DNA of 64,000 bases from Bacillota bacterium (GTDB lineage: Bacteria; Bacillota; SHA-98; UBA4971), in assembly GCA_030024085.1 (NCBI GenBank), contig JASEJE010000002.1, positions 62,001 to 126,000 of the forward strand. Reading direction: 5' to 3'. The stretch's first letter is position 1; each line of letters opens with the position of its first letter. This document shows, one piece after another, positions 4,477-63,232 of this stretch. The notes beneath the pieces were generated by a model. The model did not search any database. It was not told the origin of the DNA and saw nothing but the letters and a program-made list of their open reading frames with translations. The position numbers and the translations under genes were made by a program.

Positions 4477-4661
4477 GTGTGCGCCTTGCCGGGTACTGGA
4501 GGGGATTGCCGGTGTTGCACTCCGGGGACGGCGCGCTTGCGGCGCGCCTCGTTCGAATTTGGCGCTTAAGGCTGGCCAAATTCTCGACGCCCCGTCGTGC
4601 AAGCACCGGCAATCCCGGCACCGTCAAGAGAAGTGGCCCGAACTCATGGCGCCATACTCAG
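4473..4661 (+). repeat. CTAAG cloverleaf element, copy 1 (variant left arm)
   Basis: Interspersed non-coding element inserted between moeA and moeA-PBP. It begins with CTAGG, whose TAG is the moeA stop codon, and ends with GGCGCCATACTCAG. The core has an outer stem GATTGCCGGTG..CACCGGCAATC, an inner stem P2 GGCGCGC/GCGCGCC at about 4540-4558, and a stem P3 GAATTTGGC (4555-4563) pairing with GCCAAATTC (4575-4583). The right arm is of the common type, while the left arm (CCTTGCCGG..CTGGAGGGG) differs from the common GATCGCCACAAG type. The same family occurs at least a dozen times in this window. Confidence 0.85.
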
Positions 4662-11482: not shown

Positions 11483-11645
11483 CTGAGTAGATCGCCGCAA
11501 GTCTGCGCTGCTCTTCAGCGCGCAGGTCCTCGCCAGGGCTGCCGGTGTTGCACTCGGGGACGGCGCCCCAAGCGGGGCGCGCTTGGCCAAAATCCGGCCT
11601 GTCGGGCGGGTGGCCGGATTTTGACACCCCTCGTGCCGCACCGTG
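11483..11645 (+). repeat. CTAAG cloverleaf element, copy 3 (second core type)
   Basis: Starts CTGAGTAGATCGCCGCAAG with the common left arm including the GCGCTG..CAGCGC hairpin. The core has P2 GCGCCCC/GGGGCGC and an 11-bp perfect P3 AAAATCCGGCC (11589-11599) with GGCCGGATTTT (11612-11622). The right arm is missing or replaced after GACACCCCTCGTGC. Inner stems differ completely in sequence from copy 1 while keeping pairing. Confidence 0.8.
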
Positions 11646-14959: not shown

Positions 14960-15171
14960 GCTAACTAGATCGCCACAAGCTCGCGCTGCTTTTCAGCGCG
15001 CAGGTCCTCGCCAGGGTTGCCGGTGTTGCGCTCCGGGGACGGCGCGTGCGGTGAGATGCGTTCGAATTTGGCGCTCAAGGCTAGCCAAATTCCAGGCGCC
15101 CCGCCCTGGCAAGCACCGGCAACCCCAACACCGTCAGGAAAAGTGGCGCAAACTTATGGCGCCATACTTAG
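14960..15171 (+). repeat. CTAAG cloverleaf element, copy 4 (full length)
   Basis: 212-bp complete copy running from CTAACTAGATCGCC to GGCGCCATACTTAG. Terminal inverted repeats of about 33 bp match at roughly 24 positions. The left arm holds the hairpin GCGCTG..CAGCGC and the right arm TGGCGC..GCGCCA. The core outer stem is GGTTGCCGGTG/CACCGGCAACC. P3 is GAATTTGGC (15064-15072) with GCCAAATTC (15084-15092). The following 276 bp to tldD (15172-15447) show no gene; a TAGAAT at 15367-15372 lacks a matching -35. Confidence 0.88.
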
Positions 15172-21041: not shown

Positions 21042-21175
21042 GACTTCGGGAGGGGCTCGCGGTGTTGCACTCGGGGACGGCGCCCCGGGCGGGGCGCGCT
21101 TCGCCAAAACCCGGCCCGTCCGGCCAGTGGCCGGATTTCGACACCCCTTGTGCAATCACCGCAAGCCCTGCAGCC
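21042..21175 (+). repeat. CTAAG cloverleaf element, copy 6 (second core type, arms lost)
   Basis: Core matching copy 3: GGTGTTGCACTCGGGGACGGCG, then P2 GCGCCCC/GGGGCGC and P3 AAACCCGGCC (21107-21116) with GGCCGGATTT (21129-21138, one mismatch). The left part resembles the TTCGGGAGGGG arm and there is no clear terminal CTAAG. It sits between tpiA and eno, where gpmI is found in many Bacillota. An 11-bp tandem duplication GCCACGTGTGA (21228-21249) follows just before eno. Confidence 0.75.
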
Positions 21176-21238: not shown

Positions 21239-22766
<1,528 letters not shown>

Positions 22767-36767: not shown

Positions 36768-36962
36768 CCAAGTGTGGGTTCAGAAACCACCGTCACTTTT
36801 CCAGGGTTGCCGGTGTTGCCCTCCGGGGACGGCGCGCTTGCGGCGCGCCTCGTTCGAATTTGGCGCTCAAGGCTAGCCGAATTCCAGGCGCCCCGCCCTA
36901 GCAAGCACCGGCAACCCGGAATCTTCTCCCAAACCGGCATGGATTTCTGAACGCACACTTAG
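36768..36962 (+). repeat. CTAAG cloverleaf element, copy 10 (third arm type)
   Basis: Standard core (GGTTGCCGGTGTTGC..GCAAGCACCGGCAACC with P2 GGCGCGC/GCGCGCC and P3 GAATTTGGC/GCCGAATTC, one G-T pair) but with different ends. The left end AAGTGTGGGTTCAGAAACC matches the inverted right end CTAAGTGTGCGTTCAGAAATCC. It therefore has its own matched pair of terminal repeats. It lies between the arsR start and the minus-strand promoter at 36993-37022. The 178 nt between arsR and this copy show no feature. Confidence 0.82.
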
Positions 36963-44977: not shown

Positions 44978-45188
44978 CTAAGTGGATCGCCAGGAATTCG
45001 CGCTGCTTTTCAGCGCGCAGGTGCTCTCCAGGGTTGCCGGTGTTGCACGCCGGGGACGGCGCGTGCGGTGAGATGCGTTCGAATTTGGCACTTAAGGCTA
45101 GCCAAATTCCAGGCGCCCCGCCCTAGCAAGCACCGGCAACCTCAACACCCTCAGGAAAAGTGGCGAAAACTTATGGCGCCATACTTAG
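44978..45188 (+). repeat. CTAAG cloverleaf element, copy 11 (full length, 211 bp)
   Basis: Complete copy from CTAAGTGGATCGCC to GGCGCCATACTTAG, nearly identical in plan to copy 4: left-arm hairpin GCGCTG..CAGCGC, outer stem GGTTGCCGGTG/CACCGGCAACC, P3 GAATTTGGC/GCCAAATTC. It lies between two divergently oriented genes. Confidence 0.9.
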
Positions 45189-46535: not shown

Positions 46536-46746
46536 CTGAGTATGGCGCCATAAGTTTGCGCCATGTTCCCTGACAGTGTTGGGGTTGCCGGTGCTTGCTA
46601 GGGCGGGGCGCCTGGAATTTGGCTGGCCTTAAGCGCCAAATTCGAACGCATCTCACCGCACGCGCCGTCCCCGGAGGGCAACACCGGTAACCCTGGACAG
46701 GACTCGCCCGCTGAGAAGTAGCGCGAACTTGTGGTGATCCACTTAG
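46536..46746 (-). repeat. CTAAG cloverleaf element, copy 12 (inverted, full length, 211 bp)
   Basis: Reverse-orientation complete copy from CTGAGTATGGCGCCATAAG to GTGGTGATCCACTTAG, the same length as copy 11. It keeps the GAATTTGGC/GCCAAATTC P3 and the outer stem. It lies between two divergent genes. From 46747 to the fapA start no gene is supported. Confidence 0.9.
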
Positions 46747-48976: not shown

Positions 48977-51900
48977 ATGGCTTACGAGTCGCAGGTGGTC
49001 AGGACGAAGTTCCTTCCACCGGTGCCGCGCAAGGAACTGCTCAAGCGTCCGAGGCTGGAGGGAATGTTCCGGGAGATCGGGACTCACCCCGTCACCATAC
49101 TGCAGGCCGGTCCGGGTTACGGAAAGAGCACGAGTCTGGCAGTGTACCTGAAGGATCATCACGTGCCCTCTTTCTGGTACACGGTCGGTGAGACTGACTC
49201 CGATCCCCATGCTTTCGTGGTCCACCTTGTGTGGGCCATACGCACCGTGCGCCCGGCGGTCGGCGGCCGCGCCCTGGACATCCTGGGGGCCGAACACGAC
49301 CGATCCGCGTGGCTTGGTGCCGTGGATTCGCTGGCCAACGACATCCTCGATGAGGTCGGAGATGAGTCTGTCCTCGTCATAGACGATTACCACTTGGCGG
49401 CGAAGGCGCCGAGCGTGAACGAGATAGTGGAGCACTTCGTGTCGACGATGCCTCCGATTCTTCACGTGGTGCTCTCCACGAGAAAAAGGCCGTCGTTCGA
49501 AGCGCTTGCCAGGTGGCGGGTCAAGGGAGAGGTCCTCAAGATCTCCGAGAAAGACCTCGCGTTTACGAGTGACGAGGTGCGCGATCTGTTCTCAGGGCCG
49601 TATCAGTACGATCTGACCCCCGAGCAGGTCAGGACCATTGCTGAGCATACCGAAGGGTGGATAATCGCCCTCGAGATGATCTGGCACGGCCTCCGGGATG
49701 GTTCGACACTGCAGGACCTCTGGACGAGACCCCCGGGCTCCCTGCAGGGCGTGTTTGACTACCTCGCCGCGGAGGTTCTTCAGAAGCAGGACGACCACAT
49801 AAAGGAGTTCCTCTGCACGGTGTCGCTCCTGGAGGAACTCGAGCCGGAAGCATGCAACCACATCTCGGGCAGAGACGACAGCGTTGAAATACTGGAACGG
49901 CTGTCGGAAAGCGGCCTGTTCGTGTATTCCACGGGTGGCGGGACTTACAGGTTTCACCACCTTCTCAGGGAGTTCCTGCGCAGGCTCTATAGAAAGGACG
50001 CTCTACGCTGGGCCGCCGCCAACGCAAAAGCCGCGCAGTTTTACGCCGGCTGCAGGCGATACACGCTCGCCGTCGCACACCTCATTGCCGCTGGGGATTT
50101 CCACGGGGCGGCTCGGCTTCTTGGCACCATCGCCCCGGACCTGATTCAATCGGGTAGGTTCGACGGTCTTGCCGCATGGATAGGTGAACTGCCCGGGCCT
50201 GTGCTGGAAGCCCACCCCGACCTGCTCCTGCGGCGCGCTGACGTCTACCGGCTCGCAAGCGGCTATGAGGATGCCCTGGCATGGTACAGCATGGCTGACG
50301 AGATATTCGAGAGGAGAGGCGACAGGGCGGGGAGGAGCAAGGCACTCAAGGGCAAGGCTATGGTGTACCTGGACACGGTGCAGCCCGCGAGGAGCGACGC
50401 CCTTCTCAGGGAGGCGTTCCGGATGCTCCCGCCGGGCGACAGGTGGGAGCGGGCGAGCCTTCTCAGGATGATGGCGGAGAACAAGACCAACCAGGGCCAG
50501 CTTTCGACGGCCGTGAAGTATGCGCAGGCCGCCGAGCGGCTCATCCACCATGCGATGGAGGACGAGCTGGACATAAGGGTTCAGCTTCGCACAGGCAGGC
50601 TGTCTGCGGCTCTCGCCTCCTTGAAGCGCAAGGCGGGGGAGGAGAGGGAGGGTCTCCGTCCCCCCCGTTCTCACCGGGAGACCCAGTTGCTGCTCTCGCT
50701 CATTTACTCGCTGATCGGTGAGGGCGAGCTGGCGACGAAGTGCGCGGATGCCGGAATCCAGCTCGGCAGGGATCTCAAGTCGCCGTTTGTCGAGGCCGTG
50801 GGCTACATGCGGCTTGGCCATGCCCGGCAGGTTACATCCGCCGCATCCGGCCCTGACGCCGAGACCTGCTACCGGAAGGCGCTCGACATCGTGGACGAGA
50901 TCAGGGTGACGCGCGGCAGGGCTGAGCCTCTCATGGGCCTGGCGCTTCTCCACGCGGCTTCGGGAGATGTGGCAGGGGCCGAGCGGTCGGCGTCGGAGGC
51001 GCTGGAGATATGCAGGATCGCGGGGGACGAATGGCTCGCAGGGTTCGTGGAGCTTGGCATGGGGGCCGGGCTCGCTTCGGGCGGCGACAACGACAGGGCG
51101 CGCCGGTGGCTCGAGGCGGCCAGGAAGACCTTCGGACGATGCGGTGACATATACTGCGCCACCGTCTGCGACCTCTGGCTCGCAGTGCTTGCCATCAGAA
51201 GACGGGACGAGCCCGCGCTCCGGGAGGGCCTGGAGGGTCTCATCAGAGCTATCCGCACACATAGCTATGAGTTCCTGTTCACGAGGAAGACGCTTTTCGG
51301 CCCGAGAGACCCCGGCGTCCTGGGGCCGCTTCTCGTGGCGGCCAGGCGCTATGGGCTGGATCGTGACCACCTGGCCTGGCTCGAGGCTGCGATGGGCCTG
51401 CCGGAGGTGGGGTTCCACCCCGGGTACACGCTGCATGTCCGGACACTCGGTCCTTTCAGGGTCTATCGCGGGAGGGAGGAGGTCTCGTCCCGCGAGTGGC
51501 AGCGTGAGAAGGCCAAGACCCTCTTCCAACTCCTGCTGGTGCACAGGAAGGGCTTTCTCCACAGGGACCAGATCCTCGAGATCCTCTGGCCCGGCCTCGA
51601 CCCCGGTGTCGCGTCCAGCCATTTCAAGGTCGCGCTCAACGCGATGTTGAACACGATTGAACCCGGAAGGCCGGCGCGCCTTAGCCCGTACTACGTTCGC
51701 CGGGAAGGACCGCTCTATGGACTCAACCCTGTCTCAGGGTGCTGGGTGGACGCGGACGAATTCGAAAGCCTCGTGGAAAAGGGGACGAGATTGGAGGCCG
51801 CCGACGCCACTGGAGCGTGCGATGTCTTGAGAAGCGCTCTTCAGCTCTACCAGGGTGATTTCCTGCAAGACTGCCTGTACGAGGACTGGGCGAGCGTCGA

Positions 51901-52198
51901 GCGGGAAAGGCTCTTCGCCACATACCTGCGGGCGGCGCAGAGGTTCGCCGAACTTCTCCTCGGCAAGGACGAGGTCGACGAGTGTGTCCATGTTTGCGAG
52001 CAGATCCTGGCCAGGGACCCGTGCTGGGAGGAAGCATACAGGCTACTCATGAAATGCTATCTTGCCAGGCGCAACCGCGCGATGGCCGTCCGCACCTACG
52101 AAAGGTGTGCCACCGCCTTGCACGCGGAGATGGGCGTGTACCCTGCTCCGGAAACCTCCAGGCTGCTCGAGAGGGCCAGGCTCCTTGCTGCACTGTAG
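48977..52198 (+). CDS. MalT/SARP-type transcriptional activator (ATPase - TPR - winged helix - BTAD)
   Basis: Large 1073-aa signal-transducing activator. The N-terminus is a STAND ATPase as in MalT (Walker A GPGYGKST at 45-52, Walker B SVLVIDDYHL near 130). Residues about 350-800 are helical TPR-like repeats for ligand or protein sensing. From about residue 815 comes an OmpR-type winged helix (VRTLGPFRVYRGREEVSSRE, LFQLLLVHRKGFLHRDQILE) plus a bacterial transcriptional activator domain (EFESLVEKG.., DPCWEEAYRLLMKCYLARR), so DNA is bound in SARP fashion. Start ATG 48977 follows AAGGAG; the upstream open frame overlaps fapA. It most likely controls the operon starting at fabG, where SARP-type 11-bp repeats are found. 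Confidence 0.9.
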   Translation: MAYESQVVRTKFLPPVPRKELLKRPRLEGMFREIGTHPVTILQAGPGYGKSTSLAVYLKDHHVPSFWYTVGETDSDPHAFVVHLVWAIRTVRPAVGGRALDILGAEHDRSAWLGAVDSLANDILDEVGDESVLVIDDYHLAAKAPSVNEIVEHFVSTMPPILHVVLSTRKRPSFEALARWRVKGEVLKISEKDLAFTSDEVRDLFSGPYQYDLTPEQVRTIAEHTEGWIIALEMIWHGLRDGSTLQDLWTRPPGSLQGVFDYLAAEVLQKQDDHIKEFLCTVSLLEELEPEACNHISGRDDSVEILERLSESGLFVYSTGGGTYRFHHLLREFLRRLYRKDALRWAAANAKAAQFYAGCRRYTLAVAHLIAAGDFHGAARLLGTIAPDLIQSGRFDGLAAWIGELPGPVLEAHPDLLLRRADVYRLASGYEDALAWYSMADEIFERRGDRAGRSKALKGKAMVYLDTVQPARSDALLREAFRMLPPGDRWERASLLRMMAENKTNQGQLSTAVKYAQAAERLIHHAMEDELDIRVQLRTGRLSAALASLKRKAGEEREGLRPPRSHRETQLLLSLIYSLIGEGELATKCADAGIQLGRDLKSPFVEAVGYMRLGHARQVTSAASGPDAETCYRKALDIVDEIRVTRGRAEPLMGLALLHAASGDVAGAERSASEALEICRIAGDEWLAGFVELGMGAGLASGGDNDRARRWLEAARKTFGRCGDIYCATVCDLWLAVLAIRRRDEPALREGLEGLIRAIRTHSYEFLFTRKTLFGPRDPGVLGPLLVAARRYGLDRDHLAWLEAAMGLPEVGFHPGYTLHVRTLGPFRVYRGREEVSSREWQREKAKTLFQLLLVHRKGFLHRDQILEILWPGLDPGVASSHFKVALNAMLNTIEPGRPARLSPYYVRREGPLYGLNPVSGCWVDADEFESLVEKGTRLEAADATGACDVLRSALQLYQGDFLQDCLYEDWASVERERLFATYLRAAQRFAELLLGKDEVDECVHVCEQILARDPCWEEAYRLLMKCYLARRNRAMAVRTYERCATALHAEMGVYPAPETSRLLERARLLAAL

Positions 52199-52256
52199 AC
52201 GCAGGTCCGCAGGCGGGCAGCGCTTTGGAGCGTGCTCGCGGCTGCCCGTGTTGCAC

Positions 52257-52357
52257 CTGAGTAGATCGCCACAAACTCGCGCTACCGTTCAGCGCGCAGG
52301 TCCTCGCCAGGGTTGCCGGTGTTGCGCTCCGGGGATGGCGCGTGCGGTGAGACGCGT
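52257..52357 (+). repeat. CTAAG cloverleaf element, copy 13 (right half missing)
   Basis: Left arm CTGAGTAGATCGCCACAAAC with the GCGCT..AGCGC hairpin and the left side of the outer stem (GGTTGCCGGTGTTGCGCTCCGGGGATGGCGC), broken off after GTGAGACGCGT. The CTGTAAC direct repeats begin exactly at the break. Confidence 0.8.
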
Positions 52358-52401
52358 CTGTAACACCTCTGTAACCTCTCTGTAACACCTCTGGATACGA
52401 T
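52358..52401 (+). promoter_or_regulatory. Tandem 11-bp-spaced direct repeats, predicted SARP operator and promoter
   Basis: CTGTAAC occurs at 52358, 52369 and 52380, exactly 11 bp apart, with a weaker CTGGATAC at 52391. SARP activators bind heptamer direct repeats with 11-bp spacing just upstream of a -10. TACGAT at 52396-52401 is a plausible -10, 9 nt after the third heptamer, and there is no -35 at the right place. The site lies between a SARP-type gene and a co-directional metabolic operon. The remainder to fabG (52402-52583) shows no other feature. Confidence 0.55.
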
Positions 52402-52583
52402 CAAGATGGTTCCATTGAGGCCGGAGCGGACAACCCATGTACACGTGAGCACAGGAGAGATCCGGCCGGGCGCATCCCGAACGTCGCCGGCGGGACGTTG
52501 CCGGGAGGCCCGGCGTCCGGCCTTTCCGCTGCTGCGGCACCGCTCCGGCGCTCCGGCGACACCATCAAGGGAGGCGGCTGCTT

Positions 52584-53324
52584 GTGAGGTTGAAGGACAG
52601 GGTCGCTATCATCACTGGTTCCGGGAGAGGGCTTGGGAAAGAGGCGGCGGCTCTATTCGCAAGGGAAGGCGCGAAAGTGGTGGTGTGTGACATCAACGGG
52701 GATTCGGCGAAGGCAACCGCCCGCGAGATTCAGGAGGGCGGGGGCGCCGCCGTCGCCGTGCGAGTTGACGTGACGTGCCCCGAGAGCGTGAAATCCATGG
52801 TGGACGCTGCCATGAAGACGTTCGGCAGAATCGATGTGCTGGTCAACAACGCGGGGATCACGGCGGATGCGCTCCTCGTGAAGATGACTGACGAGCAGTG
52901 GGGCAGGGTGATCGACGTGAACCTCAAGGGAGTGTTCAACTGCACGCGGGCGGTCGCTCCGATAATGATAGAGCAGGGCCGCGGTAAGATAGTCAACACC
53001 TCGTCGGTGGTGGGGGTTTACGGGAACATCGGCCAGACGAACTACATAGCCTCCAAGGCCGCCATCATCGGTATGACCAAAGGGTGGGCAAAAGAGCTCG
53101 GGCGCAAAGGCATCTGCGTGAATGCCGTCGCCCCGGGCTTTACTATGACAGACATGATGGCGACGGTGCCTGAGAAGATCCTCACCTCCATCAAGGAGAA
53201 GACGCCCCTTGGGCGGCTCGGGGAGCCGAGGGACATCGCATATGCATACCTGTATCTCTCGTCCGACGAGGCGGACTTCGTGAACGGGGCGGTCTTGCAG
53301 GTTGACGGCGGACTCGTGCTCTGA
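52584..53324 (+). CDS. fabG: 3-oxoacyl-(ACP/CoA) reductase, FabG-type SDR
   Basis: NAD(P)H-dependent short-chain dehydrogenase of 246 aa. Rossmann motif TGSGRGLG (11-18), NNAG (88-91), and the catalytic Ser140/141, Tyr154 and Lys158 (YIASK) are intact. Start GTG 52584 follows GGGAGG. It opens an operon with CoA-transferase and thiolase genes, so it more likely oxidises or reduces 3-hydroxyacyl-CoA (PhaB-like) than serves fatty-acid synthesis. No fab cluster is present. Confidence 0.9.
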   Translation: MRLKDRVAIITGSGRGLGKEAAALFAREGAKVVVCDINGDSAKATAREIQEGGGAAVAVRVDVTCPESVKSMVDAAMKTFGRIDVLVNNAGITADALLVKMTDEQWGRVIDVNLKGVFNCTRAVAPIMIEQGRGKIVNTSSVVGVYGNIGQTNYIASKAAIIGMTKGWAKELGRKGICVNAVAPGFTMTDMMATVPEKILTSIKEKTPLGRLGEPRDIAYAYLYLSSDEADFVNGAVLQVDGGLVL

Positions 53325-53473
53325 CGGAGCAACCCTGCGAGTGTGCTTTCCGGCAAGCTCTCGATTGCCGGCCCTCTCTCAGGATGGGTGAGGACCCTGG
53401 CCTTTGCTCGCGAGGGACAGCGCTGGGATCCTCTGAAAGACAAGAGGGCGTGGCGTTTGCAGGAGGGATCGCG

Positions 53474-54766
53474 TTGAACCCGAAGGAGATTTACCGTGAG
53501 AAACTCATCACCATCGAAGAGGCAGTTGCAAAGGTGGAGTCGGGTCAATCCATAGTGGTGGCCATGTGCGCGGCGGAGCCTCCGGGTCTTCTTGGAGCGA
53601 TCTCGTCACGCGGGGATGAGCTGGAAAACGTGACGATCATGTCGTGCCTTCTCATGAGGGACTATGACTTCCTGAAGCCGGAGATGAAGGGTCACTTCCT
53701 CAACGAAGCCTGGTATTACGGGCCGCATTCCTATAGGGCGCATCCCGGCGGCACCGTGACGTTCATGCCCAATCACCTCCACGAGTGCGCCCTCAAGAAA
53801 CGAGAGATAGACCCGCCCGACATCTTTTGGGGCACGGCCACGCCCATGGACAGGAACGGCTACATGTCCCTTTCCCTAAGCCTTACCTACGAAAAGCCGC
53901 TCATCAACGTCGCAAAGATGGTCGTGCTCGAGATAAACGAGAACCTCCCGCGCACCCTGGGCGACACGCAGATACACATCTCCCAGGTCGATTACGTGGT
54001 TGAGAACACGGTGCCCCTGGTGGAGGTCGAGCCGATCATCCCCACGGATGTCGAGATGGAGATCGGGCGAAACGTCGCCAGCCTGATCGAGGACGGGAGC
54101 ACCATCCAGCTGGGGATAGGTGGAATTCCCAACGCTGTCGCCAGGGCTCTCGAGCACAAGCACGATCTCGGAGTCCACACTGAGATGCTCACCGACGGCA
54201 TGGTGGACCTCTTCCACGCGGGCGTGGTGACGGGGCGCAGGAAAACCCTCTGGCCTGAGAAGATGGTGGGCTGCTTCGCCATGGGAACGAAGAAGCTCTA
54301 CGATTTCATCGACGATAACCTCGGCGTGGAGGTCCACGGCGGTTATGTCACGAACGACCCTTACGTGATCGCCAGGAACCATAAGATGGTCAGCATCAAC
54401 ACGACCATGCAAGTGGATCTCACAGGCCAGGCCAACTCCGAGACCATCGGCACGAAGCAGTACAGCGGGACAGGCGGGGCCGTGAATACCTGCATGGGAG
54501 CGCAGATGTCCCCCGGAGGGAAGTCGATTCTTGCGCTACGGTCGACGGCGAAGAACGGCACCATTTCCACGATCGTGCCGTGCTTCAGGGAAGGCCAGGC
54601 CGTGACGATCCACCGGGCTGACGTGGACTACGTGGTCACGGAGCACGGGATCGCGCGGCTCAAGGCGAGAAACATCAGGCAGCGGGTGGAGGCCCTCATA
54701 AGCATCGCACATCCGGATTTCCGCGACTGGCTGAGGTCAGAGGCCAGGGCGCTGCAGTACATCTGA
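53474..54766 (+). CDS. Acetyl-CoA hydrolase/4-hydroxybutyrate CoA-transferase family protein
   Basis: Transfers CoA between acetyl-CoA and a short carboxylate. 430 aa from TTG 53474, chosen for AGGAGGGAT 7 nt upstream. The family motifs are PDIFWGTATPMDRNGYMSLS, IQLGIGGIPNAVARAL and VHTEMLTDG (the covalent Glu near residue 236), then GTGGAVNTCMGAQMSPGGKS and VVTEHGIARLK. It belongs to the Cat1/AbfT class I-like fold; the true acceptor (acetate, propionate, 3- or 4-hydroxybutyrate, others) is not decidable. In this operon it is the likely activation step for the compound released or imported. Confidence 0.88.
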   Translation: MNPKEIYREKLITIEEAVAKVESGQSIVVAMCAAEPPGLLGAISSRGDELENVTIMSCLLMRDYDFLKPEMKGHFLNEAWYYGPHSYRAHPGGTVTFMPNHLHECALKKREIDPPDIFWGTATPMDRNGYMSLSLSLTYEKPLINVAKMVVLEINENLPRTLGDTQIHISQVDYVVENTVPLVEVEPIIPTDVEMEIGRNVASLIEDGSTIQLGIGGIPNAVARALEHKHDLGVHTEMLTDGMVDLFHAGVVTGRRKTLWPEKMVGCFAMGTKKLYDFIDDNLGVEVHGGYVTNDPYVIARNHKMVSINTTMQVDLTGQANSETIGTKQYSGTGGAVNTCMGAQMSPGGKSILALRSTAKNGTISTIVPCFREGQAVTIHRADVDYVVTEHGIARLKARNIRQRVEALISIAHPDFRDWLRSEARALQYI

Positions 54767-54963: not shown

Positions 54964-55057
54964 GGCAGCGGGCGTCAACCAGTTTGCACTCGGTGACATG
55001 CCTGGCGGGAGTCCCAGGCACGTCAACCGCAGCATGCCGTCACTGGAGGGAAGTCTG

Positions 55058-56062
55058 ATGAAAAGGTACGCCACGATAATCGGCACCGGACAGTATCTCC
55101 CCGAGATCGAGGTCAGCAACGAGGTCATGGCCGAGCGGATCGACAAGGCCTCGCCCGGCCTGGGTGCGGTCATCGGCAAGTTCCAGAAGAGCACGGGCAT
55201 AAGGCGGCGCTGGTACTCCCCGCGCGACTGGGCCACGTCAGATCTGGCGGTGCGCGCGGCGCAGGAAGCGCTGAGAGACGCCGGGGTCAGGCCCGGGCAG
55301 ATCGATATGATCCTGGTCGGCACCGATAGCCCTGATTACATCACGCCTGCCACATCCGTCGTGGTCCAGCACAAGCTGGGTGCGGCGGGCGCGGGCACCT
55401 TCGACATAGGATGCGCGTGCGCGTCGTTTCCGACGGCTGTCGCAACGGCGGCGGGGCTGGTCGAGGCCAACCCGTGGATGAATTACATCCTGGTGATAGG
55501 GGCCTATATGATGAGCAAGCTCGCGGACCCTGCCGATGTGACCTCGTTCTTCTATGGAGACGGAGCGGGGGCGGCTGTGCTCGGTGTCGACTCGAAGCCA
55601 GGGTTCATCACCTCGGCCTATCTTGCGGACGGGTCGTATCACAAGCACTGGGGCATCTACTCGGGCGGCACCTTCGAGCCTGCGAGCGTCGAGTCGGTGG
55701 AGGCCGGTCGCACGAGGGTGCGCCTCACGCAGCCGTACCCTCCCGAAGTCAATCACGAGGGCTGGCCGAAGGTCGTCAGGAGCCTGGCGGAACGCGGCGG
55801 GTTCGCACTGGAGGACATCGACATGGCCATATTCACTCAGGTGAGGCTGCCGTCCATAATGCTCGTCATGGAGACCCTCGGTCTTCCCATGGAGAAAACG
55901 CACTGGATCATGGAGGACTGCGGATACACGGGCTCTGCCTGCATCCCCATGTGCCTCGATAATGCCATAAGAAAAGGCAAGATCAGATCCGGCGACCTCG
56001 TGGTTCTGGTGGGATCGGGCGTGGGCTACAACCAGGCCGGCGTGGCGCTCCGGATGAGGTGA
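55058..56062 (+). CDS. KASIII-like (FabH-superfamily) protein lacking the canonical His and Asn
   Basis: Thiolase-fold protein of 334 aa, start ATG 55058 after GGAGGGA. The nucleophile region FDIGCACASF aligns to the FabH xACSGF motif with C121 as catalytic Cys. The usual FIPHQAN is FTQVRLPS and the usual GNTSAAS is GYTGSACIP, so the catalytic His and Asn of decarboxylating condensation are missing. A non-decarboxylating reaction (acyl transfer, HMG-CoA-synthase-like or thiolytic), or a partner role with the adjacent thiolase, is more likely than fatty-acid initiation. It lies 24 nt before the thiolase gene. Confidence 0.8.
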   Translation: MKRYATIIGTGQYLPEIEVSNEVMAERIDKASPGLGAVIGKFQKSTGIRRRWYSPRDWATSDLAVRAAQEALRDAGVRPGQIDMILVGTDSPDYITPATSVVVQHKLGAAGAGTFDIGCACASFPTAVATAAGLVEANPWMNYILVIGAYMMSKLADPADVTSFFYGDGAGAAVLGVDSKPGFITSAYLADGSYHKHWGIYSGGTFEPASVESVEAGRTRVRLTQPYPPEVNHEGWPKVVRSLAERGGFALEDIDMAIFTQVRLPSIMLVMETLGLPMEKTHWIMEDCGYTGSACIPMCLDNAIRKGKIRSGDLVVLVGSGVGYNQAGVALRMR

Positions 56063-56086: not shown

Positions 56087-57271
56087 GTGAGACAGGCTGT
56101 GATTGCGAGTGCGGTCAGGACGGCGATAGGGACGTTCGGGGGGACCCTGGCGGACATCCCCGCGGGGGAACTCGGCGCTGTGGTGATCGGTGAGGCGCTC
56201 TGGCGCGCGAGGGTGGAGCCGGCCGACGTCGACGAGATCGTCATGGGTAACGTGCTCCAGGCGGGCCAGGGCCAGAACCCGGCCAGGCAGGCCGCCATCC
56301 GGGCGGGCATACCGGTCAGGGTGCCGTCGATGACCGTCAACAAGGTGTGCGGGTCCGGCCTCAAGGCCGTGGTGCTTGCAGCCCAGGCCGTGATGCTTGG
56401 CGACGCCGATGTGATCGTGGCAGGTGGCATGGAGAACATGAGCGAGGCCCCGTACCTCCTCGCCAAGGCGCGCACGGGCTACCGCATGGGCCACGGCGAA
56501 CTCATCGATAGCATGATAAGGGACGGCCTATGGTGCGCCATCACCGACGTTCACATGGGCATAACCGCGGAGAACCTCGCGGAAAAGTACGGTATTTCCA
56601 GGCAGGAGCAGGACGAGTTCGCCCTCCGCAGCCAGCAGAGGGCGGAACTGGCCGTCGCGGAGGGCACGTTCGACGAGGAGATCGTCCCTATCGAGGTCCC
56701 AAAGAGGAAGGGCGAGGTCGCGAGGTTTACCCGCGATGAGCATCCCCGCTTCGGCACCACCATGGAGAAGCTCGCTGCACTCAAGCCCGCTTTCAAGAAA
56801 GACGGCACGGTCACCGCAGGAAACGCTTCGGGCATAAACGACGGCGCTGCGGCTGTGGTGGTCATGTCGGAGGACAAGGCCGCCTCGCTCGGCATCGAGC
56901 CTATGGCAGCCATCAGGAGCTATGCGTCGGCGGGAGTGGAGCCGTCGGAGATGGGGCTCGGGCCTGTGCCCGCCACCCGCAAGGCCCTGGCGAAGGCGGA
57001 CCTCACTCTCGAACAGATGGACCTCATCGAAGCGAACGAGGCCTTCGCGGCGCAGTCCCTTGCCGTCGGCCGTGAGCTTGGCTGGGCCCCGGAGAGAGTC
57101 AACGTGAACGGCGGCGCCATTGCGCTCGGACATCCCATCGGCGCAAGCGGGGCGCGCATCCTCGTGACCCTGCTGTACGAGATGAAGAGGCGCGGGGCCA
57201 GGCTCGGCCTTGCCACCCTCTGCATCGGCGGCGGCATGGGAATGGCCGCCATTGTCGAAAGAGACCGATGA
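56087..57271 (+). CDS. Acetyl-CoA acetyltransferase (thiolase)
   Basis: Biosynthetic or degradative thiolase interconverting acetoacetyl-CoA and two acetyl-CoA, 394 aa. Acyl-accepting C88 in [10 protein letters not shown], His in [13 protein letters not shown] and the second Cys in [10 protein letters not shown] are intact, as is GGMENMS. Start GTG 56087 follows GAGGGAGGG. The chain length and [12 protein letters not shown] favour the acetyl-CoA C-acetyltransferase class (AtoB/PhaA/Thl). With FabG and the CoA-transferase it completes a route between a 3-hydroxyacyl/acetoacetyl compound and acetyl-CoA. Confidence 0.93.
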
Positions 57272-57313: not shown

Positions 57314-58360
57314 GTGGCGACCCTTGCTGGCATCGATCCGTGTTACGTACAGACGCCCCGGCTGCGGTTCCATGTCCTGACCCGGGGGTCCGGCGACGGT
57401 GAACCCGTGCTCTTCCTCCACGGGAACGCGTCGTCGTCCACGTTTTGGGAAGAAGTCATGCTCGCGCTGCCGGAAAGATACCGTGCGATCGCCCCGGACA
57501 TGCGGGGCTATGGGCTCTCCGAGCTCAAGCCTGCCGATGCCATCCGCGGGGCGTGCGACTGGTCCGACGACCTCGACAGCCTGGCAGGCGCCCTGGACCT
57601 CGGCGAATTCCACCTTGTAGGCTGGTCGCTCGGAGGCGGCTGGGCCATGCAGTATCTCCTCGACCATCCTGAGCGGGTGAAGACTCTGACGCTGGTGGCG
57701 CCTGTCTCCCCCTATGGTTTCAGCGGCACCAAGGGTGCGGACGGCGCGCCCTGCTGGCCTGATTTCGCAGGGTCCGGAGCCGGAGGCGTCAGCCCGGACT
57801 TCCCACGGATGCTGCGGGAGAAGGTCCGGGACAGCGGAGACGACCCGATGCTCCCCCGAAACGTCATGAACGCGTTCTACTGGAAGCCTCCGTTCCGGTC
57901 CAGCCGTGAAGAGGATCTCCTCACATCGATGCTATCGACGGCCGTGAGCGAGGGCAATTATCCCGGCGACTTCGTCCCCTCTTCCAACTGGCCGGGGTTC
58001 GCGCCCGGCACGCGGGGGGTGCTGAACGCTTTTTCCCCGAAATACTTCAACGTCAGCGGAGTCGCGGACATAGAACCCAAGCCGCCCGTGCTATGGGTGC
58101 ACGGAGCCGACGACCAGATAGTATCCGACACTTCCGTCTGGGACGTGGGCTACCTGGGACAGATCGGCCTCATCCCCGGGTGGCCCGGCAATGAGGTGTT
58201 TCCCGCCCAACCCATGATCAGGCAAACCCGCGCGGTCCTGGAACGATACCAGAGCCGCGGAGGCTCCTATCAGGAAACGGTGTTCGAGAGCTGCGGCCAT
58301 TCGCCGCATGTAGAGAAGCTGGAGCAGTTTGTATCAGTCCTGCTCAAGCATATTGCGTGA
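57314..58360 (+). CDS. Alpha/beta-fold hydrolase
   Basis: Esterase or hydrolase of 348 aa with a complete triad: Ser in GWSLGGGW, Asp in [10 protein letters not shown], His in CGHSPHVE, plus the oxyanion [11 protein letters not shown] roughly 120-residue cap domain lies between strands 6 and 7. Start GTG 57314 has AGGAGGCGATG upstream. No signal peptide is seen, so it acts in the cytosol. In context it may release the acid that the CoA-transferase activates, for example from an ester or hydroxyacid oligomer; a thioesterase is also possible. Confidence 0.85.
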
Positions 58361-58601: not shown

Positions 58602-59471
58602 GTGCTGGCTCAGCAGATCGTGAGCGGGCTCGCGGCGGGGTGCCTGTACGCCCTGGCTGCGCTGGGGCTCGTCCTGATCTACCGTACCATGGACATCGTG
58701 AACTTCGCCCACGGCGAGATGGCCATGGTCTCGACGTTCGTGGCCCACACCCTGCTTGCCCGCGTCGGCCTGCCGTACGTGGCGGCGGCCGTCGGAGCGC
58801 TCGCTTTTTCCGCGCTATTCGGGATGCTGGTCGAGCGCGTGTTCCTCCGGCCCATCCAGAACGGGCCGCTCATCAGCATGATGATAATGACCCTCGGCCT
58901 GTTCATGGTGTTCAACGGCGCAGCCGGGTGGATCTGGGGGTTCGACCCGGTGAGCTTCCCGTACGCCGTGAGAGGGCGGCCCGTCGTCGTGAGCGGTCTC
59001 ATCATGACCCGTGACAGCCTTCTCGTGCTGGGCGTGACCCTCGTGATGGCCCTCGGTCTCTACCTCGTGCTCAGGCTCACGCTGGCTGGGATAGCCATCA
59101 GGGCCACGAGCCAGAACGCCGGGGCGGCGAGGCTCATGGGCGTGCCGGTGCCCCGGGTCTATTCGCTCACGTGGGGGATAAGCTCGGTGCTGGGCGCGGT
59201 GGCAGGGATCCTCATCGCTCCTACGACGTTCCTGAGCCCCAACATGATGGCTGAGGTGCAGATCAAGGCGTTCACCGCCGCGGTGCTGGGCGGGTTCTCG
59301 AGCCTCCCGGGAGCGGTGGTGGGAGGCCTTCTCCTTGGCGTGCTCGAGAACATCGTGGCAGGGTACATTTCGACGCAGCTCAAGAGCACGTTCGCTTTCG
59401 CCCTGATAGTCGCGGTGCTCTGCATCCGCCCGAGCGGAATACTGGGGACGCCTCCCAGGAGGAAGGTGTAA
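58602..59471 (+). CDS. livH: Branched-chain amino acid-type ABC transporter permease LivH
   Basis: First permease of a HAAT-family importer, 289 aa with about eight membrane segments. Typical N-terminal GLAAGCLYALAALGLVLIYRTMDIVNFAHGEM is present (shown in pieces: YALAALGLVLIYR, NFAHGEM) and the late LGGFSSLPGAVVGGLLLGVLEN. Start GTG 58602. It sits 17 nt after the small ORF and 5 nt before livM. HAAT systems also carry short carboxylates, urea and aromatic acids, so the substrate need not be an amino acid in this operon. Confidence 0.92.
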   Translation: MLAQQIVSGLAAGCLYALAALGLVLIYRTMDIVNFAHGEMAMVSTFVAHTLLARVGLPYVAAAVGALAFSALFGMLVERVFLRPIQNGPLISMMIMTLGLFMVFNGAAGWIWGFDPVSFPYAVRGRPVVVSGLIMTRDSLLVLGVTLVMALGLYLVLRLTLAGIAIRATSQNAGAARLMGVPVPRVYSLTWGISSVLGAVAGILIAPTTFLSPNMMAEVQIKAFTAAVLGGFSSLPGAVVGGLLLGVLENIVAGYISTQLKSTFAFALIVAVLCIRPSGILGTPPRRKV

Positions 59472-59476
59472 GCGCA

Positions 59477-60526
59477 GTGAACGCATCCAACAACGATGCG
59501 GCCAGCCCCACCATTATCCGCCGCGCGGTCTCCGCCATATCGTCTCCCGGCGGCCGTCTTGCCTCAGGGGGGATCGTCCTGGTCCTCCTGCCGCTCGTGA
59601 CCGTGGCGCTGGACAGGGCCTACGTCGTGTACCTGTACGACCTCGTGATGGTATACGTCATCGTCGCGCTGGGGCTCAACATACTGACTGGTTTCACGGG
59701 GCAGATATCCATCGGTCACGCCGGGTTCATGGCGATCGGCGCATACGCGTCGGCCATCCTCACCGGCCGCCTGGGTCTGCCCTTCGTGATGGCCATGCCC
59801 CTTGCCGCCCTCCTCACCGCGGCCATCGGTTTCTGCCTGGGCATCCCCGCGCTCCGGCTGCACGGGCATTACCTTGCCATAGCGACCCTCGGGTTCGGGG
59901 TGGCGGTGAGCCAGTTGTCCGCCGTGTGGGAGGGCTTTACCGGTGGTTATCAGGGAATGAAGGTCCCGGTCGCCTCGATCCTGGGTCTGGGCTTCAACTC
60001 CGACCTACGGTACTACTACCTGGCCCTGGCCGTCACCTGGCTCATGCTGGCGGCCGCCCGGAACATCCTCCGGACCAGGCCAGGGAGGGCCCTCATGGCG
60101 GTGCGCGATAGCGAAGTGGCGGCCCAGGCCATGGGCGTCAACCTTGCCAAATACAAGACGGCCTCTTTCGCCGCGAGTGCGTTCTATGCGGGCATCGCCG
60201 GCAGCCTGTACGCTCACCTCGTCAAGTTCATAAGCCCGTTCGACTTCAACCTGGGGGTATCTCTCACGCTCCTTGCGTCGATAGTCGTGGGCGGTCTCGG
60301 CAGCGTGACCGGATCCGTGCTGGGGGCGGTCTTCATGACCCTCCTTCCGCACGTTTTCAGCCGGGTCAAGAACCTGCCGCTCGTTCTCACCGGAGTCTCG
60401 CTTATCGTCGTGGTCCTGTTCCTGCCGCATGGCCTCGTGAGCCTGCCGTGGCGCCTGAAGCAGGCGGCAGCGAGAATGAGGACGAGAATGGGGATGAGGG
60501 GGGCGACGAGACGTGGCACTGCTTGA
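59477..60526 (+). CDS. livM: Branched-chain amino acid-type ABC transporter permease LivM
   Basis: Second permease, 349 aa and about ten membrane segments. Family features are LGLNILTGFTGQISIGHAGF (within one membrane region), the Gln-rich AVRDSEVAAQAMGVNLAKYK loop that contacts the ATPase, and VGGLGSVTGSVLGAVF. Start GTG 59477. The end overlaps livG by 14 nt. The C-terminus is a basic tail (RMRTRMGMRGATRR). Confidence 0.92.
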   Translation: MNASNNDAASPTIIRRAVSAISSPGGRLASGGIVLVLLPLVTVALDRAYVVYLYDLVMVYVIVALGLNILTGFTGQISIGHAGFMAIGAYASAILTGRLGLPFVMAMPLAALLTAAIGFCLGIPALRLHGHYLAIATLGFGVAVSQLSAVWEGFTGGYQGMKVPVASILGLGFNSDLRYYYLALAVTWLMLAAARNILRTRPGRALMAVRDSEVAAQAMGVNLAKYKTASFAASAFYAGIAGSLYAHLVKFISPFDFNLGVSLTLLASIVVGGLGSVTGSVLGAVFMTLLPHVFSRVKNLPLVLTGVSLIVVVLFLPHGLVSLPWRLKQAAARMRTRMGMRGATRRGTA

Positions 60527-61292
60527 GATCCAGGGCGTGACCGTCAGGTTCGGCGGTCTCGTGGCCGTGAACGACCTTGGCTTCGCCGTGGAAGACGGGG
60601 CCATCCACGGCCTCATCGGTCCGAACGGGGCGGGGAAGAGCACGGTGTTCAACTGCATCAGCAGGTTCATAAGGCCCGACGCGGGTGTCATCCGGTTCTC
60701 CGGCAAGGAGCTTGCCTGCGAACCCCACGAGGTCATCCTGCGGGGCATCGCCAGGACATTTCAGAACGTTGAGCTTTTCCGGGGCCAGACCGTCATCGAC
60801 AACGTACTCCTCGGCCTGCACGCCGCGGGCACCGTGGACATCCTCCGCGGGGCGCTGCGGGGCCGCGGCGCCCGCGCGGAGGAGGCACGCCTGCGGACGA
60901 GGGCAGCAGAGGTCCTGGATACGCTTGGCATCACCGGCTATGCGCCGGGCCTTGCCTGCGGCCTGCCGTATGGCGTCCAGAAGCTGGTGGAGCTGGCGCG
61001 GGCGCTCGTGTCGAGGCCGCGGCTTCTCCTTCTCGACGAGCCCGTGGCGGGGATGAACTCTGCGGAGCGGGTGGACCTGGCGAAGACCATCAGGAGAATA
61101 AGGGACGAACTCGGGGTCACGGTCCTTCTGGTCGAACACGACATGTCCATAGTAATGGGGCTTTGCGACATGATCACGGTCATGAACTTCGGCAGCAAGA
61201 TCGCCGAAGGGACACCTCATGAGGTCCAGCACGATCCGCGGGTCATCGAGGCCTACCTCGGGGAGGATGCCGAAAATGCTCCGGCTTGTTGA
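60513..61292 (+). CDS. livG: Branched-chain amino acid-type ABC transporter ATPase LivG
   Basis: ATP-binding subunit of 259 aa. Walker A GPNGAGKST, the LivG-type signature LPYGVQKLVELARAL, Walker B LLLLDEPVAGMN and the H-loop in LLVEHDMSIVM are in order. LivG-type ends with the VEAYLGED segment. It overlaps livM by 14 nt and livF by 17 nt, indicating tight coupling. Confidence 0.93.
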   Translation: MALLEIQGVTVRFGGLVAVNDLGFAVEDGAIHGLIGPNGAGKSTVFNCISRFIRPDAGVIRFSGKELACEPHEVILRGIARTFQNVELFRGQTVIDNVLLGLHAAGTVDILRGALRGRGARAEEARLRTRAAEVLDTLGITGYAPGLACGLPYGVQKLVELARALVSRPRLLLLDEPVAGMNSAERVDLAKTIRRIRDELGVTVLLVEHDMSIVMGLCDMITVMNFGSKIAEGTPHEVQHDPRVIEAYLGEDAENAPAC

Positions 61293-61986
61293 CGTTGACG
61301 TCTACTACGGCATGGTTCTTGCGTTGCAACAGGTTTCCATCGAGGTGCCCGAAGGGGAGATCGTGGCGCTCCTTGGGGCGAACGGTGCCGGGAAGACCAC
61401 CACCCTGCGGGCGATATCCGGCGTGGTGCGGCCGAGGAGCGGCAGGATCGAATTCGTGGGCGAGCGCATCGACGGCTCGGCGCCGGAGCGCATCGTGTCG
61501 ATGGGGATCGTGCAGGCGCCGGAAGGCCGCCAGGTCTTCCCTGAGCTATCGGTGAAGGAGAACCTTCTCATCGGGACCTACGCGCGGCGCGACCGCAGGG
61601 CCGTCCCGGGCGACTTCGACCGGGTGTACGCCCACTTCCCGGTCCTTAGGGAGCGGGAGGGTCAGGCGGCGGGCACCCTCTCCGGCGGAGAGCAGCAGAT
61701 GCTCGCCATAGGGCGCGCCCTCATGGCCCGCCCAAAGGTACTCCTTCTCGACGAGCCATCCCTCGGGCTTGCTCCGCTCGTGACCAGGCAGATATTCGAC
61801 ATCATAAGGGCCCTCAATGCGGAAGGGACGACCATCCTGCTCGTTGAGCAGAATGCCCGGCTTGCGCTGGGCGTCTCGACCCGCGCTTACATCCTCGAGG
61901 CCGGGCGCATCGTCCTCTCGGGTCCGAGTGAAGGCCTTCTCAAGAGCGAGGAGGTGAGGCGCTCATATCTGGGCACCGGGGCTTGA
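61276..61986 (+). CDS. livF: Branched-chain amino acid-type ABC transporter ATPase LivF
   Basis: Second ATPase, 236 aa. Walker A GANGAGKTT, signature LSGGEQQMLAIGRAL, Walker B VLLLDEPSLGLAP and H-loop LLVEQNARLAL. Start ATG 61276 is chosen because GGGAGG (61261-61266) is 9 nt upstream and the conserved LRLVDVDVYYG begins there; ATG 61267 is directly adjacent to the GGGAGG. Followed 43 nt later by the binding protein. Confidence 0.92.
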   Translation: MLRLVDVDVYYGMVLALQQVSIEVPEGEIVALLGANGAGKTTTLRAISGVVRPRSGRIEFVGERIDGSAPERIVSMGIVQAPEGRQVFPELSVKENLLIGTYARRDRRAVPGDFDRVYAHFPVLREREGQAAGTLSGGEQQMLAIGRALMARPKVLLLDEPSLGLAPLVTRQIFDIIRALNAEGTTILLVEQNARLALGVSTRAYILEAGRIVLSGPSEGLLKSEEVRRSYLGTGA

Positions 61987-62029
61987 AAGTCGCGCACATG
62001 CAGTCCAAATCTGAGGAGGGGAAGACGAT

Positions 62030-63232
62030 ATGAGAAGGTTCACGCTGATTGTGGGAGTGTGCCTTGTGGCGGTCCTGATGGCCAGCCTCGCGGGTGTGCC
62101 CGCGGCGGGCCAGGTGCCCGGCGTTACCGCTGACCAGGTGCTCATCGGGGCATTCCAGGACCAGTCGGGGCCGGCTGCTGTGGTCGGGATCAACATGCGC
62201 AAGGGAATGGAGGCTTACCTCAACTGGCTGAACGCCCAGGGCGGGGTGAACGGGCGCAAGATCAAGCTTATCGTGGAGGACGACGGGTTCCAGGCCTCAC
62301 GGAGCATCGCCGCGGTCAAGAAACTGGTGGAGCAGGACAGGGTGTTCGCGCTCGTGGGCACGCTCGGGACCCCCGGGGTGGTCGCCACCATCGACTACAT
62401 CATGGAGAAGCAGGTGCCCTCGGTGTATCAGGGAACCGGCGTGAGCATTCTGGCTTTCCCCGCGAAGAAGTACTTCTTCCCGGTGCAGCCCAACTATATC
62501 AGTGAGGGACGCATCATAGCCCAGTACGTCGTGGAGAACCTGAAGATGAAGAGGGTCGCCGTCGCTTGCGAACAGACCGACATCGGCTCTGAGGGCCTGC
62601 GGGGCGTGAAGGAGCAGCTTGCCCAGTACAAGATGGAGCCGGTGGCCGTCGTCAACTTCGGCGCTGCCGACGTGGACTTCAGCTCCCAGGTGCTCAAGCT
62701 CATCCAGGTGAAGCCGGATGCGGTGGTCATCTACTCGACGATCAAGCCCTGCGCAGGCTTCCTGAAACAGGCTGCCACGATGGGGCTCACCGCGCAGTTC
62801 CTGACGACCTACGTGAACGCTGACCCGGTCCAGATGCCCAACCTTGCCGGCGAGGCTTGCATCGGGCTCATCGCCCCTGGCTGGGTGCCCGTTCTGGGCA
62901 CCGATCCGGATTCCCAGAAGTATCTGGAGATCTACCAGAAGAGCTTCCCGAACGAGATGCCGAGCGCCTTTGCGGCCGCAGGATTCATCGCCGCGGAGGT
63001 CTTCTCTGAGGGCCTCAAGCGAGCTGGCAGGGACGTCACCCGTGACAAGCTCGTCACCGCCCTCGAGACTCTCGACGACTGGCATGGCGTAATGGCGAAG
63101 GGGATAACCTATACGCCGGAGTGGCGGTCAGGCAAGACCTCAATGTACTTCATGAGGTTCGAGAAGGCGAAATTCGAGGAGGGATCGGTGAAAGTCATAT
63201 CCGACTGGGTGAAGCTCAAGATCCGACGATGA
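62030..63232 (+). CDS. livK: Branched-chain amino acid-type ABC transporter substrate-binding protein
   Basis: Extracytoplasmic binding protein of 400 aa of the LivJ/LivK fold. The signal peptide (FTLIVGVCLVAVLMASLAG, then VPAAGQ) has a type I cleavage site and no lipobox; the Cys at residue 11 is mid-helix. The mature part starts GVTADQVLIGAFQDQSGP and has two lobes. Residues such as VGTLGTPGVVATIDY form the ligand cleft; the usual Ser/Thr motifs for amino acids are altered, so the ligand is uncertain. The gene ends the operon, and tandem repeats follow immediately. Confidence 0.88.
   Translation: MRRFTLIVGVCLVAVLMASLAGVPAAGQVPGVTADQVLIGAFQDQSGPAAVVGINMRKGMEAYLNWLNAQGGVNGRKIKLIVEDDGFQASRSIAAVKKLVEQDRVFALVGTLGTPGVVATIDYIMEKQVPSVYQGTGVSILAFPAKKYFFPVQPNYISEGRIIAQYVVENLKMKRVAVACEQTDIGSEGLRGVKEQLAQYKMEPVAVVNFGAADVDFSSQVLKLIQVKPDAVVIYSTIKPCAGFLKQAATMGLTAQFLTTYVNADPVQMPNLAGEACIGLIAPGWVPVLGTDPDSQKYLEIYQKSFPNEMPSAFAAAGFIAAEVFSEGLKRAGRDVTRDKLVTALETLDDWHGVMAKGITYTPEWRSGKTSMYFMRFEKAKFEEGSVKVISDWVKLKIRR

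Follow-up and report, generated by a model that had tools for sequence, protein, structure and literature searches.

A predicted SARP-type operator linking a MalT-like STAND regulator to an acyl-CoA-type operon in an uncultured Bacillota bacterium

Introduction

What is the function of an array of CTGTAAC direct repeats that lies between a large regulatory gene and an operon on the same strand, in a bacterium outside the Actinobacteria? The array was found in a stretch of 64,000 nucleotides of a Bacillota genome (hereafter the window), and the initial annotation of this stretch had proposed that regulator, site and operon form a unit of the SARP type. To our knowledge, nearly all known SARP operators come from Streptomyces antibiotic clusters. 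A literature search of limited scope found no SARP operator described in Bacillota, an absence that is not proof. Here we compared the locus with the rest of the source genome (G000, 3.1 Mb), with related genomes and with known regulatory systems. The features of the locus are listed in Table 1.

Table 1. Features of the regulator, its putative operator and the downstream operon (window coordinates).
Feature	Position	Strand	Evidence
Regulator: N-terminal MalT-like STAND ATPase (P-loop GPGYGKST), TPR middle, C-terminal SARP module	48977..52198	+	Pfam, NCBIfam, PDB, AlphaFold
Candidate operator: three CTGTAAC direct repeats (52358-52364, 52369-52375, 52380-52386)	52358..52386	+	Repeat scans; conserved at 10 further promoters
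-10-like hexamer TACGAT	52396..52401	+	9 nt past third heptamer; TANNNT equivalent in 11/11 promoters
SDR (FabG / acetoacetyl-CoA reductase-like), first operon gene	52584..53324	+	ORF list, Pfam, NCBIfam
Acetyl-CoA hydrolase/transferase-family CoA-transferase, butyryl-CoA:acetate-like, below equivalog cut-off	53384..54766	+	Profiles; conserved part from near 53459
KAS III (FabH-like) condensing enzyme	54998..56062	+	Pfam, NCBIfam
Thiolase (acetyl-CoA C-acetyltransferase-like)	56087..57271	+	Pfam, NCBIfam
Alpha/beta hydrolase	57314..58360	+	Pfam
LivH, LivM, LivG, LivF, LivK-like ABC transporter genes	58602..63232	+	ORFs; names by sequence resemblance

Results

A single array in front of a promoter without a -35

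Three exact copies of CTGTAAC start at positions 52358, 52369 and 52380 of the plus strand with a period of 11 bp, as the initial annotation had described. Its further observations that a -10-like TACGAT follows the third copy and that a -35 is missing also held: no sigma-70-type -35/-10 pair was found in 52190-52600, and no terminator was found in the same interval. The proposed weaker fourth copy did not hold. The sequence in question, CTGGATA (52391-52397), has 4/7 letters of the heptamer, overlaps the -10 and lacks conservation across promoters, and true fourth repeats lie on the upstream side of the array, in three related genomes (G160, G234, and G186).

With up to two mismatches allowed, 0.06 heptamer pairs at 11 bp were expected by chance per 64 kb, compared to two found in the window, which overlap each other and have zero mismatches each. 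A sequence-blind scan of window positions 50-64 kb for any three 7-bp repeats at 11 bp ranked the array first with a score of 7/7, while the maximum in shuffled sequences was 5. The initial annotation had also suggested searching the genome for other arrays. In G000, a triple array with up to three mismatches was found solely at 52358-52386, and the sole other match of the pair scan (up to two mismatches) was C27:6713, with two mismatches. On the pair expectation, the uniqueness in the genome and the shuffle scan together, we reject a chance origin of the array.

In SARP operators, direct repeats have a period of 11 or 22 bp, and the last of them lies about 8 bp from the -10 and replaces or overlaps the -35. 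The array has three repeats at 11 bp, with the same period in all 11 promoters that carry it, and ends 9 nt before the -10 in genus g1 and 10 nt before it in the other genomes. Depending on the assumed end of the repeat, this gap is 1-2 nt above the textbook value of 8.

A C-terminal SARP module on a MalT-like protein

The gene upstream of the array had been read as encoding a winged helix and a BTAD domain together with a STAND ATPase, and our analyses agreed. In the 1073-aa product, a SARP module with a winged helix (about aa 819-910) followed by BTAD (aa 924-1065) was recognized. The Pfam search returned BTAD (3e-24) and TPR, and no match to Pfam Trans_reg_C. The NCBIfam AfsR profile matched aa 818-1066, under the family cut-off, and a search of the C-terminal 269 aa against PDB retrieved AfsR (E 8e-07) in an alignment spanning both winged helix and BTAD. 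The AlphaFold model of the C-terminal module had a mean pLDDT of 90, and its best PDB folds in Foldseek were AfsR in a transcription complex (E 1e-11, TM 0.77) and EmbR (TM 0.81). The predicted protein thus has the order typical of SARPs, an OmpR-type winged helix and then BTAD.

MalT of E. coli is a STAND activator with an N-terminal STAND ATPase, TPR and a terminal LuxR-type helix-turn-helix. The NCBIfam MalT profile matched the regulator at aa 8-524 (9e-63), with 212 bits against a family cut-off of 537, and this match covers only a part of the full-length profile, which includes the LuxR helix-turn-helix. The SARP module lies not at the N terminus, where it is found in the Streptomyces SARPs AfsR and PimR (PMC10936776, PMC5930380), but at aa 819-1065. 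The protein also differs from a cluster-situated antibiotic activator of Actinobacteria, since its host is a member of the Bacillota and the neighbouring genes are an acyl-CoA-type operon and a Liv transporter. A manual reading of the PDB alignment showed that the base-contacting residues T88 and R92 of AfsR are replaced by V and A in the regulator, and the DNA specificity of AfsR is therefore not transferable to it.

The predicted target operon

The enzymes encoded downstream of the array (Table 1) suggest a short pathway for acyl-CoAs or beta-keto acids, together with an uptake system. The Liv genes are probably the distal part of the operon; their order was kept in three related loci (L037, L097, and L098). 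The alpha/beta hydrolase gene was not found beside the thiolase in G001, L072 or L097. In G002 (L038:15793-17028), KAS III and a downstream gene, sited beyond livK in G001, form one in-frame fusion, and the thiolase and Liv genes are absent, possibly through a deletion.

The array is conserved with the operon and the regulator

Orthologues of the regulator were identified in two congeneric species (83 and 76% identity), in family f63 (UBA5389, THP_Bin_8 and others; about 60-65%, with 43% for G092) and in a third family, f73, as a fragment in G127 (48%). The array was found at 11 promoters in 10 genomes from three families (G000, G001, G002, G160, G234, G186, G210, G280, G127, and two in G092), and every one of the 11 arrays precedes all or part of the SDR/CoA-transferase/KAS III operon. 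The operons of G257 and G324 were left out of this count; their contigs break off at the operon start or shortly before it. The initial annotation had stated that its proposal would fail if orthologous operons kept the regulator and lacked the repeat. The opposite was observed, with the array present in 9/9 genomes that have the regulator and in which the operon promoter could be read, even where regulator identity drops to 43-48%.

In an alignment in register, the heptamers of any two of the 11 promoters were 67-100% identical, compared to 11-46% for the upstream flanks and mostly 12-46% for the downstream flanks, which were higher only in two close pairs. Flank identity was typically about 25%, close to the background level. 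The heptamer consensus was nTGTAAC, and G3, A6 and C7 were invariant in 33/33 repeats. A phylum-wide pattern search also gave unassigned hits in low-GC genomes (L080, L085, and L090-L093). A second, weaker array (CTGCAAC, CCGTAAC, CTGTAAC) was seen near a contig end in G160 (C105, L099:8258-8286).

The regulator gene adjoins the array in the window, G001, G002, G160 and G234, and where regulator and operon are apart, the array is found in front of the operon. In G186, about 19 kb of one contig separate the regulator from the operon, which has kept the array; in G280, regulator and operon are on separate contigs and the array is at the operon. The operon of G092 is split into an SDR piece that adjoins the regulator on C46 and a CoA-transferase/KAS III piece on C3, and both pieces are preceded by a separate array and -10. 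In G210, the array was present and the regulator was not found in an assembly that is 84% complete.

In the sister species G003 and G004, regulator, array and operon are all gone together, with deletion junctions common to both. In the scar (L039:9211-9372 and L040:5189-5337), 81 bp from the regulator gene (codons 606-632) are followed by 71 bp from the end of livK, and these segments are 86-92% identical to the window, while the rest of the module is gone. The scar of G004 lies directly after a FapA-like gene. At 18 CoA-transferase loci without the regulator in their flanks (about 48-65% identity), no array was found upstream; the best of them scored 14/18 and the others were at shuffle level, compared to 16-18 of 18 for the array-bearing loci. 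The co-occurrence of regulator and array is not independent evidence, because one lineage or transfer history is common to both. The distant or split operons, the joint losses and the array-free loci are thus strong lines of evidence that are linked by common ancestry.

Paralogues and a second repeat word

A STAND-BTAD paralogue in G000 (C62, L042:7268-10798) is 44% identical to a regulator in the sister genus. About 190 bp upstream of its start, three TGACCAA-like words occur at 11 bp (L042:7081-7109), with a divergent VWA-domain gene on their far side. The TGACCAA word is conserved in a sister genus and recurs upstream of C62 relatives in G007, G009, G010 and G011 (L016, L017, L024, and L025), with weaker repeats in G007 and G010. 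No arrays were found near the C63-type paralogues (L041, L043, and L044). If confirmed, the TGACCAA case would mean that the word read differs between members of the family while the geometry is shared. We tentatively suggest a STAND family with a C-terminal SARP module in which each paralogue may read its own 7-bp word at 11 bp (CTGTAAC, TGACCAA), an idea to which we give slightly less than an even chance.

Discussion

Proposed reading

The array, its conservation and its tie to the operon were observed directly, and the SARP fold was predicted by modelling. We consider it highly probable that the array is the operator through which the neighbouring regulator acts. The proposal of a SARP-type regulator-site-target unit in a non-actinobacterium is supported by the conservation, the operon tie and the predicted fold, and the array is most likely a SARP-type activator operator, read in a primary metabolism of Bacillota by a C-terminal SARP module on a MalT-like STAND protein.

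MalT activity depends on inducer and ATP. In the mechanism that we consider most likely, the STAND/TPR part of the regulator would likewise sense a pathway metabolite together with ATP and then oligomerise. Its C-terminal SARP modules would bind the array, aligned head to tail with one module for each heptamer. They would all occupy the same face of the helix, immediately before the -10, and would hold sigma region 4 in lieu of the missing -35. The outcome would be activation of the SDR, CoA-transferase, KAS III, thiolase and Liv operon. The SARP modules of AfsR sit next to each other on their 11-bp repeats, where they touch both sigma region 4 and RNA polymerase (PMC10936776), and similar contacts would, by analogy, explain the missing -35. 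Since the operon enzymes suggest an acyl-CoA or beta-keto-acid pathway with uptake, a substrate or product of this pathway is, at a guess, the likely inducer.

Alternative readings

The array could be the site of the regulator and serve repression instead, or mainly looping or autoregulation. The site abuts the -10, and activation is argued by analogy; however, the missing -35, the constant gap of 9-10 nt between the site and the -10 across all genomes and the SARP fold match activators (PMC10936776). The array also lies on the operon side and not at the regulator's own promoter, and we regard a repressing, looping or autoregulatory site as unlikely.

Response regulators of the OmpR type could also read such words. 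WalR (YycF) controls many genes in known Bacillota. The letters of the array, TGTAAC-N5-TGTAAC, fit the WalR consensus TGTWAH-N5-TGTWAH (PMC9210968), and the gene block upstream of the array in G186 and G210 is a two-component system. Moreover, G287, which is without a homologue of the regulator, has a similar array (L100:8354-8410; TTTTAAC-CTGTAAC-CTGTAAC, 10 nt, TATGAT) before a response-regulator/kinase operon of walRK-like order. However, a triple TGTWAH scan of G000 (up to one mismatch) revealed no further site except a Pho-box-like one, the array neighbour in the window, G001, G002, G160 and G234 is the SARP-type regulator and not a response regulator, and the joint loss of array and regulator in G003 and G004 counts against WalR. 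A site of WalR or of another OmpR-type response regulator is rather improbable, although not negligibly so, since the G287 array, in a genome without a SARP-type regulator, indicates that words of this kind are available to OmpR-type proteins.

A Pho box bound by the phosphate response regulator PhoP/PhoB would have the same 11-bp architecture. Pho boxes of E. coli are CTGTCAT-type 7-mers with an 11-bp period just upstream of the -10 (PMC4415409), and a PhoP-PhoR-PstB-PhoU-like cluster is present on contig C20 of G000. However, the likely Pho box of G000, between the phoR-like and pstB-like genes, is a different word, TTAACA-N5-TTAACA (gene sense). In G160 and G257, comparable TTAACA repeats come after what appears to be the equivalent gene end. 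The pst cluster has no CTGTAAC array scoring at least 16/21 and the whole genome has a single array, so the motif is not shared with the phosphate genes of the same genome. We consider a Pho box very improbable, and both the Pho-box and the WalR-box readings are weaker than that of a SARP operator. The TTAACA direct repeats at 11 bp (L137, G000 C20:2695-2722; L124; L126) are the probable Pho box of these bacteria.

An origin of the array by chance or as a by-product of dispersed repeats has practically no standing: an incomplete dispersed-repeat copy is located immediately 5' of it in G000 (about 52307-52347) and a fuller copy in G002, but the array is unique in the genome while the dispersed repeat is not, and its conservation beyond that of its flanks, together with this uniqueness, excludes it as part of such a repeat. 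Dispersed repeats of roughly 100-190 bp occur in the window at 4506-4618, 11536-11636, 15011-15125, 21060-21171, 22585-22709, 36770-36962, 45027-45141 and 46582-46697, and also in related genomes.

Significance and comparison with known systems

A SARP-type operator would make the locus a complete predicted regulator-site-target unit in an uncultured member of the Bacillota, for an apparent acyl-CoA metabolism and its dedicated transporter. The operator is short and testable, and the SARP module appears to have been transplanted onto a MalT-like sensor. Helix and heptamer, co-varying across genomes, offer paired cases in which to study how the SARP winged helix selects its recognition sequence, and paralogue-specific words, if true, would amount to a SARP code for primary metabolism outside Actinobacteria.

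Compared to known systems, the regulator resembles MalT in the order of N-terminal STAND ATPase and TPR, with the profile match noted above, but that match is below the family cut-off and the SARP module takes the position of the LuxR-type helix-turn-helix. The boxes of PhoB/PhoP and WalR are likewise 11-bp direct repeats read by head-to-tail OmpR-type winged helices, but these proteins are response regulators with many targets, whereas here we found one site per genome (two in G092) and one operon.

PimR and other Streptomyces SARP-LALs also combine a SARP module with a LuxR-family large ATP-binding part and use three 7-bp direct repeats with 4-nt spacers (PMC5930380); PimR requires a minimum of two heptamers and performs best when three are present (PMC5930380). 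In PimR (PMC5930380), however, the SARP module is N-terminal and not C-terminal, the heptamer is CGGCAAG and not nTGTAAC, and the operator does not overlap the -35, while the array here lies 9-10 nt from the -10. PimR has one target, a regulator gene of antibiotic synthesis (PMC5930380), compared to an acyl-CoA/transport operon in Bacillota.

AfsR at the afsS promoter shares the combination of winged helix and BTAD with NTPase and TPR, and the 11-bp direct repeats that replace a good -35 beside the -10 (PMC10936776; PDB 8hvr, 8k60). The domain order of AfsR (PMC10936776) is SARP (N-terminal)-NOD-TPR, in contrast to STAND-TPR-SARP in the window, and its repeats are CGTT(T/C)ATCGNN instead of CTGTAAC. 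AfsR acts globally and undergoes phosphorylation by Ser/Thr kinases (PMC10936776), unlike the predicted one-operon regulator described here.
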